From positions 1-30,841 of IMG/VR virus record IMGVR_UViG_3300010392_000981: 30,841 bases of DNA. One strand, written 5' to 3'. The DNA is from a virus. Below the pieces are notes generated by a model that was not told where the DNA came from, made no database searches, and saw only the letters and a program-made list of their open reading frames with translations. Made by a program: the position numbers and the translations under genes. This document shows positions 2,874-30,647 of the stretch, one piece after another. Numbering within the stretch: the first letter of the stretch is position 1; each line of letters opens with the position of its first letter.

Positions 2874-4544
2874 TTGTGGCAAAGTAATGAGAATCCTGTC
2901 TTCCGTAGTAAGTTTGCAGAAGACATTTTTAAGCAGAAGTACGCGCATGAAGGTGCGGAGACTTGGGATGAGTTGTGCTCTACCCTTGTAGATGATGTTT
3001 GTGGCAGGTATGTTTCAAAAGACGTGGCACTTGCCATCAAGAATATTATGAAGACAATGAAATTTATTCCGGGAGGACGGTACCTTTACTATGCCGGAAG
3101 AACAAAGAAATTCTTCAATAATTGCTACCTACTCTCTTCGTTGGAGGATAGTAGAGAAGATTGGGGGAACCTATCTCGTAAGGTTGAGTTGTGCCTCGCG
3201 ACCGGGGGCGGTATCGGAGTGGACTATTCCAAGTACCGTGCAGAAGGAAGTGTTATTAAAGGCACTGGTGGTGTAGCTTCAGGCCCACTGTCAAAGATGG
3301 AGATGACCAATGGAATGGGCAGACATATTATGCAGGGAGGCACTCGTCGTAGTGCTCTTTATGCTAGTCTTGACTGTGATCATCCTGACGTAGACAAGTT
3401 TTTGGTAATGAAGGACTGGCACAATATGCCAGTACCCAGTACAGACAAGACTATATGGGACCTGAAGCAAGCTGACTTCAACTACAACGCTCCAATGGAC
3501 ATAACCAACATAAGTGTTAATTACAACACTAAATGGTTAATGAACTACTGGAAGACAGGAGATTATGGATATGTCTTCAGAAAGAATGTGGAGCAGGCAA
3601 TTCGTACAGGGGAACCGGGATTTTCTTTCAACTTCTTCGACAAGGAAAATGAAAAGCTCCGCAACGCCTGCACAGAGGTTACTTCCGAGGACGATAGCGA
3701 CGTTTGTAATCTCGGTAGTATCAATATGTCTCGTATTGATGACATTGCTGATTTCAATGACGTTGTCACTTTTGCTACCATTTTCCTGCTTTGTGGCACA
3801 CTGGTTTCCGAATTGCCTTATGACAAGGTTTACGACGTACGTGCAAAAAATAGGAGACTGGGCCTCGGACTCATGGGCGTACACGAATGGCTTCTTAAAC
3901 GGGGTTATAAATATGAGGTAACAGATGAACTACGGAGGTGGTTAAGTGTATATGAACACGTATCTGACGCTGTCGCAAAAAGTACAGCAGATAAAATGGA
4001 TATTAGCAGACCGGTGGCTGTTAGGGCGATTGCCCCCACGGGTACAATTGGTATCCTTGCAGGAACAACTACAGGAATTGAACCAATATTTGCAGTTGCT
4101 TATAAACGACGTTACATGTCAGACGGAAAAAAATGGAAGTACCAATACGTCATCGACTCCACAGCAAATGAGCTTATTCTCAACCAAGGGGTAGACCCTG
4201 AAGCTATTGAGAGTGCCATTGATCTGGCGGAGGATTTTGAACGACGTATTGATTTTCAGGTAGGAGTACAAGAGTATGTTGATATGGGAATCAGCTCTAC
4301 AATTAACCTACCTGCGTATAAGGAGAACAAGGACTATGTTGACAGGTTTGCTAGGTACTTGGCTGATAATGCTCACAGGCTGCGAGGCTTCACGTGTTAT
4401 CCAGATGGCAGCCGTGGTGGACAGCCTCTTGTAAGTGTGCCTTACAATGATGCCCTTGATAAGCTCGGGGAAGTATTTGAAGAGAATGTCATGACCCATG
4501 ATATTTGTGAAATTGGTGGTAAAGGAGGTGTTTGTGGTGTCTGA
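2874..4544 (+). CDS. nrdJ: adenosylcobalamin-dependent (class II) ribonucleotide reductase, 556 aa
   Basis: The protein reduces ribonucleotides to deoxyribonucleotides for phage DNA synthesis. Visible catalytic features: C84 in NNCYLL and C278 in CNLGSIN (the redox pair that reduces the 2-prime position), N264-C266-E268 in NACTE (radical Cys and flanking Asn/Glu), the ATGGGIGVDYS and GTGGVASGP blocks, QGGTRR, and the APTGTIG substrate loop near 387-393. The C-terminal pair C545 and C554 is suited to re-reduction by thioredoxin. There is no ATP-cone, no NrdB partner and no glycyl-radical activase nearby, which with the sequence style points to class II. The start appears to be TTG at 2874, with AGGA at 2861-2864 nine bases upstream; no ATG is available. 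Confidence 0.9.
   Translation: MWQSNENPVFRSKFAEDIFKQKYAHEGAETWDELCSTLVDDVCGRYVSKDVALAIKNIMKTMKFIPGGRYLYYAGRTKKFFNNCYLLSSLEDSREDWGNLSRKVELCLATGGGIGVDYSKYRAEGSVIKGTGGVASGPLSKMEMTNGMGRHIMQGGTRRSALYASLDCDHPDVDKFLVMKDWHNMPVPSTDKTIWDLKQADFNYNAPMDITNISVNYNTKWLMNYWKTGDYGYVFRKNVEQAIRTGEPGFSFNFFDKENEKLRNACTEVTSEDDSDVCNLGSINMSRIDDIADFNDVVTFATIFLLCGTLVSELPYDKVYDVRAKNRRLGLGLMGVHEWLLKRGYKYEVTDELRRWLSVYEHVSDAVAKSTADKMDISRPVAVRAIAPTGTIGILAGTTTGIEPIFAVAYKRRYMSDGKKWKYQYVIDSTANELILNQGVDPEAIESAIDLAEDFERRIDFQVGVQEYVDMGISSTINLPAYKENKDYVDRFARYLADNAHRLRGFTCYPDGSRGGQPLVSVPYNDALDKLGEVFEENVMTHDICEIGGKGGVCGV
4521..4530 (+). promoter_or_regulatory. strong ribosome binding site inside the end of the reductase gene
   Basis: AAAGGAGGTG is a near-perfect anti-16S match. 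It encodes the GGKGGV part of the reductase tail and sits 6 bases before the GTG at 4537, which decides the start of the next gene. Confidence 0.7.
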
Positions 4545-26762: not shown

Positions 26763-27077
26763 TTAGGACCTGTCTATAGCCGCAAGCTTGATAGAAGCAC
26801 CTTGGCCGTAAGAAATACCAAAATACTCTGCAGTAGCAGCCTCCAAAGGAATATCTCCTGCAGCAGCAGTTGGATCAGTACCAAAATCCACCCAACAATT
26901 TCCTGTAGACCAGATACGAACAAATGTGGTCTTTGCATTCAACACAGAGCTTGGTACAGAGGAGCTTGTAAAATCAATGCTATGGGAAGCAATTGCAGGC
27001 TCTTCACCAGCAGGCATCACGTTACCGTCTGCATCCCTAGCCTGACGTGCATATTCTCTAATATATAGATCAGTCAT
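26763..27077 (-). CDS. small beta-rich phage protein, 104 aa
   Basis: ATG at 27077 overlaps the stop of the basic protein (TAATG). After YIREYARQARDADGN the product holds SIDFTSSSVPSSVLNAKTTF, VRIWSTGNCWVDFG and ATAEYFGISYGQG, a pattern that recurs in small phage proteins of unknown function: one compact beta domain. It is possibly a decoration protein or a small virion part. It ends one base before the spike gene start. Confidence 0.6.
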   Translation of the reverse strand: MTDLYIREYARQARDADGNVMPAGEEPAIASHSIDFTSSSVPSSVLNAKTTFVRIWSTGNCWVDFGTDPTAAAGDIPLEAATAEYFGISYGQGASIKLAAIDRS

Positions 27078-27532
27078 TATCTGTTCTCACGCTTCTTGGC
27101 ATCTTTTGTAGTACGAGAAGTCTGATAACTCTTTTTCTTCTTTTTGGGCTTGGACACACTTACAGTTTTGTTGTTTACCTTACCTTTAGGTTCAGTCATT
27201 CGCCGCTTGGCAGGAGTAGCCTTCATTACACCGACTTCAGTAGCATTTACACGCTTCTTTGGGCGTGGGTTGGTTGTGGGTTTAGCTGCTACCTTGCTTT
27301 TAGCTTTTACACCGGCCCTAGGGTTTTTTGCACCCGGATTTTTTGATTTTGGGTTGCCTCTGCCACCCACCTTCCTAGTGTTTTTTACAGGATTACTAGG
27401 TTTGCTAACTGCAGGTTTATCTGGAAGATTTCCACGGGGGGTTTTGGGTCCAGATGGTTTAGCCTTAAGCTTACCGTCTTTGGACTCTCGTTTCTTTTTT
27501 GTAGCGTTACCACGGGGGTTTTTAGTTGCCAT
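27077..27532 (-). CDS. extremely basic, disordered protein, 151 aa (histone-H1-like composition)
   Basis: By my count about 49 of 151 residues are Lys or Arg and only about 7 are Asp or Glu. Pro, Gly and Asn fill most of the rest, with short repeats NPRG, TPRG, KNPGAKNPR and a KKKKK run, and almost no large hydrophobic residues. This is the composition of histone H1 tails and of DNA-condensing or nucleic-acid-coating proteins. It sits between small terminase and the spike, inside the packaging cluster, so it could help condense or hand over DNA, or travel in the capsid. There is no fold to recognise; function is inferred from composition. Confidence 0.65.
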   Translation of the reverse strand: MATKNPRGNATKKKRESKDGKLKAKPSGPKTPRGNLPDKPAVSKPSNPVKNTRKVGGRGNPKSKNPGAKNPRAGVKAKSKVAAKPTTNPRPKKRVNATEVGVMKATPAKRRMTEPKGKVNNKTVSVSKPKKKKKSYQTSRTTKDAKKRENR

Positions 27533-29213: not shown

Positions 29214-29639
29214 TTAACCCCACCAACGAGCCTTGCCTTGTCTGGTGTCCATATGAACAAATGTCTGGTAGATACCAATACCGGTAAACCCTACTTTCTC
29301 TGCCATAATGGCAAGTTCAGGGCCAGACAGATGTTCTGGAATACGAACATCAAAGGCTTTTGATTGTCTATGTTCAGTGCCAAGATGGAAGGAGTTCTTG
29401 GCGCCACCGACATGTCTGTTATGACCTTCACATCTACAGGCTGAGTGAATTACAAGAGGAACGTCATATCCGGCATCTCCAGACACATGGTCCCTGAGTG
29501 CCTGCAACATCTGGATGGATGGCGCATCCACGTTACAGAGGGGTTCGTATCCATGGGAGCAGTAGATAGGCATTTTACCATCCTGACACCCTCTACACTC
29601 AAACTCCTCAGAGTCGAAGTTCTTTGATACTTTAGGCAT
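29214..29639 (-). CDS. endolysin, peptidase M15-type, 141 aa
   Basis: Zinc ligands of M15 peptidases are visible: H85 in SFH, D97 in KAFDV and H129 in VHMD, with D131 next to it. Upstream are SACRCEGHNRHVGG (the usual S..R...N..VGG block). This family cleaves peptide cross-links in peptidoglycan. There is no signal peptide, so it would need the holin. The N-terminal part has four Cys (15, 18, 28, 35), which could hold a small zinc site. It starts 8 bases inside the lipoprotein gene and abuts the holin. Confidence 0.85.
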   Translation of the reverse strand: MPKVSKNFDSEEFECRGCQDGKMPIYCSHGYEPLCNVDAPSIQMLQALRDHVSGDAGYDVPLVIHSACRCEGHNRHVGGAKNSFHLGTEHRQSKAFDVRIPEHLSGPELAIMAEKVGFTGIGIYQTFVHMDTRQGKARWWG

Positions 29640-30018
29640 TCAAACCTTCCGGGTCCATATACTGACGGGAGCCAAGTACACAGTGCTCACCAAAAGCAAC
29701 ATCTACAATAATCCAAGTGCCGAAAGCGGACACATACTGCTGGAATGTCCAGACTTCCTTTACATCCCAGTGTTCAGGGATACCATACGCCCTATACACA
29801 CTGGTGTGGTCTTCGCCTTCAATCAGTTTTACAGCCCCTACGTATTGATATCCATTCTCAACGACGTAGTAGGTATAAACATGTTCCCGATTCGGTTTCT
29901 CTTCAGTACACACAACTTCCTGCGCAGGAGGTGTAGGTGTCAGTGTAGTAGTATTACAAGCGGAAACTGACAGGGCCAATCCAAGTGCCACCGCTATTGC
30001 TTTGATGTTTGAGAGCAT
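29632..30018 (-). CDS. lipoprotein, 128 aa, first gene of late operon
   Basis: Signal peptide with Lys at 6, hydrophobic core (AIAVALGLALSV) and lipobox VSAC with C21, so the mature protein would be a lipid-anchored envelope protein. The mature part starts with a Thr/Pro linker (NTTTLTPTPPAQEV) and then a 90-residue folded region (YTYYVVENGYQYVGAVKLI, WTFQQYVSAFGTWIIVDVAFG). It is first after the leftward promoter, with AAGGA 6 bases before ATG. In lysis cassettes such a gene can be an outer-membrane spanin; the large folded part is also compatible with superinfection exclusion. Confidence 0.7.
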   Translation of the reverse strand: MLSNIKAIAVALGLALSVSACNTTTLTPTPPAQEVVCTEEKPNREHVYTYYVVENGYQYVGAVKLIEGEDHTSVYRAYGIPEHWDVKEVWTFQQYVSAFGTWIIVDVAFGEHCVLGSRQYMDPEGLNA

Positions 30019-30051
30019 GTGATTTCCTTATCAAATTTCCACTATACTACT

Positions 30052-30080
30052 ATTATACACCTTGGTGAGCGTTTTGTCAA
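30052..30080 (-). promoter_or_regulatory. sigma70-type promoter for the late operon (leftward)
   Basis: On the minus strand TTGACA (30080-30075) and TATAAT (30057-30052) are both perfect, separated by 17 bases, with a run of seven A just upstream of the -35 (UP-element-like). Transcription would begin near 30045, about 27 bases before the lipoprotein ATG. Confidence 0.9.
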
Positions 30081-30094
30081 GTCTTTTTTTCACT

Positions 30095-30252
30095 TTTTTA
30101 AAAAAAATTATTTTATATGCTATTTCATTAAAAACAGGTGTGCAAAAAACATGTCTACAGGTCATTTCTACCTTGGTTTTTCTCTTATCTTAGGCTTCAG
30201 AACCCCTTAAATTACCTTTTAAAATCAAGGTTTTATAAAAAAGTTTCAGAAA
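30095..30252. other. AT-rich spacer between divergent promoters
   Basis: 158 bases, mostly A/T, with A-runs and T-runs at both ends and no gene. It could serve as UP elements, as a DNA-unwinding site, or as a binding region for a regulator controlling both arms. Function cannot be read from sequence alone. Confidence 0.5.
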
Positions 30253-30266
30253 AGTGAAAAAAAGAC

Positions 30267-30295
30267 TTGACAAAATCGTCTCAGAGGTGTATAAT
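30267..30295 (+). promoter_or_regulatory. sigma70-type promoter (rightward)
   Basis: TTGACA at 30267-30272 and TATAAT at 30290-30295, both perfect, with a 17-base spacer and the same upstream A7 tract as the leftward copy. It fires away from the late operon into the long leader and the gene starting at 30818. Confidence 0.9.
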
Positions 30296-30456
30296 ATCCA
30301 TAGTGGTCGAACGAAGTGAGACTACCTCTTTCTACCCCCTCATACTCCCCCATAATGGGAACCCCTATATCCACTAAGATGCATATAGGTAAATTGTATT
30401 CCCATAAGTAATAATGGGCACCGTATTGCCGTATGGCCAACCACATTAGATGTACC

Positions 30457-30480
30457 ACCCCCTTCATGGGGGTATTTTTA
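30457..30480 (+). terminator. possible weak terminator / attenuator
   Basis: ACCCCC (30457-30462), loop TTCAT, GGGGGT (30468-30473), then ATTTTTA. Only six base pairs, but GC-rich and followed by five T, within the leader of the rightward transcript. Confidence 0.35.
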
Positions 30481-30647
30481 TGCCTACAAGACCCCATTTC
30501 CCATAATTTATTGTAGAAATTCTTTAGGTACTTTGTTATACTTTATGGTAGGGGACCCCTAACCCCCTATATACCCCTTTCTGAATAGTGACCCATACCC
30601 CTAATAGGTAGTGATGAGGCATTACTAGCCCATATTAATACTCATAT

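Follow-up and report, generated by a model that had tools for sequence, protein, structure and literature searches.

The window, by which we mean the whole stretch of 30,841 bases analysed here, is a linear record and a fragment of a marine Zobellviridae/cobavirus-like podophage. It encodes a terminase, portal, capsid, tail appendage, holin and endolysin, with a metallophosphoesterase and an RNR at the opposite end. The terminase, portal and capsid are homologous to those of the family, and portal, capsid and tail had PHROG matches. Like the Cobavirinae (ICBM1, ICBM2, CRP-5, P12053L, SIO1; Zobellviridae), the window phage and its relatives have two converging arms, a class II RNR in the replication arm and no RNAP, the early arm being seen in relatives only; the Cobavirinae are DTR phages, and direct terminal repeats are predicted for the window phage. 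The window differs from the Cobavirinae in its terminase, which is only 42–44% identical (> 90% coverage) to those of Roseobacter, Lentibacter and Celeribacter phages, in the mirror symmetry of its promoters and in its RNR (2874–4544), which is nearest to that of CRP-3 (67%), an HMO-2011-type phage. The RNR arm is therefore mosaic, while the structural genes are Zobellviridae-like; an RNR query of IMG/VR found nothing. The structural arm also encodes a 151-aa protein which is very rich in lysine and arginine and has no family match (27077–27532, minus strand). The features at the right end of the window are as follows.

29632–30018, minus strand: gene heading the leftward arm; its 128-aa product has a lipoprotein-like start and no family match
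30051–30103: left arm of an inverted repeat, 53 nt, 85% complementary
30052–30080, minus strand: S promoter, TTGACA-AAACGCTCACCAAGGTG-TATAAT, facing left towards the lysis/structural arm (first ATG at 30018)
30081–30090, minus strand: A7GAC resembling a UP element, upstream of S and fitting AAAAAARNR
30244–30296: right arm of the same repeat (53 nt, 85% complementary)
30257–30266, plus strand: A7GAC resembling a UP element, upstream of T and fitting AAAAAARNR
30267–30295, plus strand: T promoter, TTGACA-AAATCGTCTCAGAGGTG-TATAAT, facing right towards the predicted genome terminus
30302–30480, plus strand: predicted short noncoding RNA from T, about 175–180 nt, its start placed from the −10 and its end from the terminator
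30457–30480, plus strand: intrinsic-terminator-like hairpin ACCCCCTTCATGGGGGT with a T-rich tail, −12.6 kcal/mol
30505–30531, plus strand: predicted terminus motif AATTTATTGTAGAAATTCTTTAGGTAC, conserved in all five close relatives, matrix rank 1/61,658
30553–30576, plus strand: C-rich block (...ACCCCTAACCCCC...), a short way into the predicted terminal repeat

The initial annotation described two perfect, divergent TTGACA-N17-TATAAT promoters within an inverted repeat, and this was confirmed: the window contains exactly two such sites, compared with a mean of 0.01 in its dinucleotide shuffles, none of which (0/100) contained two. Both are host-type, with consensus −35 and −10 hexamers, a 17-nt spacer and a proximal UP subsite. 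The arms of the repeat are separated by 140 nt and, in inverted orientation, are identical at 45 of 53 positions, or 33 of 41 when the hexamers are excluded (P about 4e−10, at a chance match of 0.33 per column). The identity reported through the −35 is present, and the run is a little longer than the 23 bases originally given, at 26 bases (AAAAGTGAAAAAAAGACTTGACAAAA). Directly before the −35 of both promoters lies AAAAAAAGAC; AAAAAARNRNTTGACA occurs twice in the window and in none of 100 shuffles. ATAGTGG is also common to both promoters, 3′ of each −10 and offset by 2 bases. In E. coli, the proximal subsite of UP elements has the consensus AAAAAARNR and is bound by alpha-CTD. A7GA fits this consensus, so the upstream flank can be read in an ordinary way, as a site which host RNA polymerase would contact through its alpha subunit.

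We searched 1.34 Mb for divergent pairs of promoters (score ≥ 22/24, ≤ 250 bp apart), using Markov shuffles as a control. Pairs were found 5′ of the structural arm in nine relatives: the five close relatives from IMG/VR (L005, L006, L011, L014 and L017), the cobaviruses ICBM2 and CRP-5, and two further contigs (L222 and L228). ICBM2 has one additional pair elsewhere in its genome. No pairs were found in the shuffles of the searched sequence, indicating that the divergent pair is real and has been kept in part of the family. The gap from −35 to −35 is 186 bp in the window vs 26–183 bp in the relatives. The rightward promoter matches at 12/12 positions in the five close relatives and at 11–12/12 in ICBM2, CRP-5, L222 and L228, and the S promoter is perfect or near-perfect at the equivalent place throughout the family. 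In Siovirus (P12053L, SIO1), PQ867845 and MW202697 a perfect leftward promoter stands alone. At ≥ 10/12, T was not detected in Siovirus (P12053L, SIO1), PQ867845 or MEP401, nor ahead of the RIO-1 terminus, and it is therefore not universal.

Unlike the recurring divergent pair, the mirror symmetry is special to the window phage. Here the two promoters agree at 18/20 upstream positions and 11/17 spacer positions, vs 5–10/20 and 2–5/17 (where comparable) in the nine relatives. Conservation beyond the hexamers had been ascribed either to a recent duplication-inversion or to a shared factor reading the flanks, and related phages lacking symmetry outside the hexamers had been named as an observation that would refute the proposal; all nine relatives are of this kind, and a shared phage factor is not supported. 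A phage-encoded regulator that reads the mirrored flanks and co-controls both promoters would explain the 26-bp identity through the −35 and the identity ahead of the −10 in the window phage, but the relatives keep the same pair without mirrored flanks and A7GA matches the host UP-element consensus, which makes such a regulator very improbable, and a palindrome for a phage factor was rejected as a candidate. A local duplication-inversion accounts for the shared flanks, so that no phage factor is needed. It also fits the spacers: the left (S) spacer of the window matches the right-hand (T-class) spacers of relatives at 9, 10, 8, 4 and 8 of 17 positions and their left-hand (S-class) spacers at 4, 4, 4 and 6 of 17, and so is nearer to the T class. 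We suggest that an inverted copy of T took the place of S in the lineage of the window phage, which would have placed UP elements in both arms; gene conversion or convergence may be other origins of the identity.

The 246-bp unit, with its 53-bp terminal inverted repeats, outward promoters and gene-free interior, could also be taken for a small MITE-like mobile element. By inspection, however, it has no target-site duplication, there is no second copy within the window and relatives have divergent promoters without an inverted repeat; we consider this origin hardly credible and rejected it. A DNA similarity search of the phage collection with the window end gave no match.

The S promoter lies about 27 nt upstream of the ATG at 30018 (minus strand), the start of the first gene of the lysis/structural arm, which has an RBS-like AAGGA just 5′ of it, and S probably drives this arm. 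In the five close relatives the first gene of the structural arm is instead Hsp20/alpha-crystallin-like (L005:1044–1445, L006:5238–5630, L011:617–1015, L014:6075–6476 and L017:1272–1694; PF00011, E 6.5e−16 in L005), and the 128-aa lipoprotein-like gene of the window stands in its place. The structural-transcript leaders of these relatives (L011, L017, L005, L014 and L006) contain hairpins such as GCTTGTAGTGCGAAAGGCTGCAAG, in which the stem is kept and the sequence differs. In cobaviruses the structural strand has a further perfect sigma70 promoter, immediately 3′ of the major capsid gene (L210:28619, L208:28106, L209:30175 and L212:37512, all minus strand).

To the right of the promoter pair there are no genes within the window. 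The ends of related genomes offer a guide to this region. The DTRs of ICBM1 and ICBM2, mapped by PacBio reads, are 159–173 bp long, and the 5′ end of the cobavirus DTR is conserved and G+C-rich (PMC6775973); terminal repeats are also annotated in the VpV262 and RIO-1 records. In all four genomes an AGAAAT-like core lies 11–13 nt ahead of the first base of the repeat. A matrix of 13 columns, built only from these four mapped ends, ranked the window site (30512) 1st of 61,658, and the corresponding sites 1st of 43,114 in L006, 1st of 43,108 in L014, 5th in L017, 8th in L011 and only 111th in L005. The C-rich block of the window resembles ACCCCCTAACCCCCC of ICBM1. As the motif matches mapped ends and is followed by this block, we predict that the DTR starts at ~ 30532 (± 2) and that the genome ends at ~ 30531. 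In IMG/VR, the motif combined with CCTCT was specific to the same five relatives, and a search for further relatives by Hsp20 alignment and this pattern returned only these five contigs; the short motif AATTYATTRYAGAAATT was too loose on its own, with 120+ matches, mostly unrelated. A matrix built from the window clade only and applied to the isolates was not decisive: with some column sets an intergenic site ranked 1st in ICP2 and MW202697 and 2nd in CRP-5, but ICBM2 failed. The reverse test, from the mapped ends, was clean. A likeness of the motif to Cas12a repeats overlapped by only 12 nt and was judged to be chance. Terminus-like motifs in the divergent intergenic regions of ICP2 (L215:26483–26514) and MW202697 (L214:35653–35684), where no annotated ends were found, are candidate genome ends. 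The position of the AGAAAT-like core before the cut thus offers a sequence rule for Zobellviridae ends, which fits the four mapped genomes and predicts unmapped ones.

T points at the predicted right terminal repeat, about 230 nt from its start, and across the phages the distance from T to a mapped or predicted terminus is 68–361 nt. The anatomy of this region is well supported and T very probably faces the genome terminus; the function of T we infer from its position. The promoter pair would mark the place where the two ends of a terminally redundant, T7-like Zobellviridae genome meet, with T, built for host RNA polymerase (sigma70), at the right end of the linear genome. Its transcript would stop at the terminator-like hairpin, which lies ~ 180 nt downstream of the promoter, giving an RNA of ~ 175 nt whose 3′ end is ~ 50 nt before the predicted terminus.

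A reading along the lines of the initial annotation would have the twins serve as the principal promoters of the phage, T for the early arm and S for the late arm, and would leave timing to an additional factor. For the leftward arm this holds up, given the position of S; for the rightward arm it is not supported, as the terminator-like hairpin and the predicted terminus intervene. Both promoters have a perfect consensus and are correctly oriented for both arms in a concatemer, and contigs do continue through the junction. However, in incoming linear DNA T and the early genes would be at opposite ends, so that T could not reach them, the terminator ~ 50 nt ahead of the junction would end most T transcripts even in concatemers, and the window contig stops before any early gene on its right side. 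Relatives moreover hold separate near-consensus (11/12) promoters inside the early arm (L006 at 2835 and 394; L014 at 2026). T is therefore best seen as terminus-directed, and we consider a role as the early-arm promoter to be distinctly improbable.

The absence of a visible phage RNA polymerase, from which the question of timing had been raised, is true of the window but carries little weight alone, since this linear record of 30.8 kb is a fragment. The replication arm that the window lacks is present on a contig from a relative (G001; capsid 81%), with primase, helicase, DNA polymerase and exonuclease. There was no match to PF00940 in the window, this contig, the L006 and L014 records, CRP-5, P12053L or ICBM2, with T7 as a positive control, and cobaviruses are stated to lack RNAP (PMC6775973, PMC6918029). 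The replication arm of G001 also encodes a 481-aa peptidase (phrog_4191, L085:3390–4835), and the contig starts with a (AGTAAGCA)n run which looks like an assembly artefact. The late timing of the structural arm may come from where S lies, close to a terminus of the linear genome: if the DNA enters left end first, an order which we infer, the end that carries S would enter last and S would be delayed. This suggests a way in which late genes could be delayed with host promoters only.

If T is terminus-directed, either the RNA or the act of transcription could matter. T could make a dedicated stable noncoding RNA with a regulatory or packaging role, similar to the phi29 pRNA in size and place. 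A promoter, 175–300 nt and a terminator before the terminus are found in the window, ICBM2 and L222 (terminators computed) and in CRP-5, L228 and VpV262 (by inspection), and the RNAs of ICBM2 and L222, and those of CRP-5 and L228, can be aligned over their whole length. No ORF of > 10 codons was seen by eye in the predicted RNA of the window. The T transcripts also tend to open with a hairpin (combined P = 7e−4); however, the S transcripts share this trend (P = 3e−5), so it is not specific to T and suggests stable transcripts in general. Between groups there is no sequence conservation, the window RNA had no Rfam match (none to the pRNA family up to E = 5) and its fold is not significant (z −1.37). 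In the five close relatives T is only 68–151 nt from the terminus. No terminator was found before it in L005, L011 and L017 and none that was convincing in L006 and L014, so a short RNA of defined extent is not a conserved feature. We therefore think a dedicated RNA unlikely, and the 68–75 nt without a terminator in L005, L011 and L017 favour the arrival of transcription over a specific conserved RNA. Most likely, T would serve replication or packaging by letting transcription, or a short RNA, reach the genome end or the concatemer junction. On balance we lean towards an account which combines a terminus-directed T, an S promoter for the structural arm, late timing set by position and an origin of the symmetry in an inverted copy.

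Known systems resemble this arrangement in part. The Cobavirinae also have a strong sigma70-type promoter facing the structural arm at the right end, and ICBM2 and CRP-5 share the terminus-facing promoter with a terminator before the DTR. The order of promoter, ~ 200–300 nt, terminator and DTR is found in these two and in VpV262, where a rightward 11/12 promoter is followed by ~ 200 nt, a terminator and the mapped DTR start; VpV262 differs in its 18-nt spacer, in a tRNA-like sequence upstream and in that no divergent consensus partner was found there. The likeness to phi29 pRNA is in size and place only, a short RNA of ~ 175 nt (predicted in the window) beside a genome end, and the window RNA differs in lacking an Rfam match or conserved structure and in coming from another type of phage. 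Like T in relation to the predicted terminus, phiOR of T7 (39229) is near the right end of a DTR genome and fires rightward towards it. In T7, the complex of polymerase and gp3.5 pauses on reaching the concatemer junction, where its encounter with gp18/gp19 starts maturation (PMC3276506). However, phiOR is a promoter for a single-subunit phage RNAP, whereas T has the host sigma70 consensus in a phage in which no RNAP was found and is paired with a divergent structural promoter, and any shared function is by analogy. We regard a phiOR-like role of T as possible, if somewhat doubtful. A little more tentatively still, we propose that Zobellviridae without RNAP aim a dedicated host-sigma70 promoter at the genome end, where host transcription or a short RNA would help concatemer resolution or the start of packaging. 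As far as we found, a host-driven counterpart of phiOR has not been described in the literature. Attention thus moves away from the mirrored pair itself and towards the genome terminus and the conserved host promoter aimed there, and whether transcription aids packaging in phages without RNAP is testable in cultured cobaviruses.

It should also be noted that the junction of PQ867845 (L213, bases 1–450) has, by eye, a near-perfect inverted repeat of ~ 100 bp around a noncoding region, which may be an assembly fold-back.
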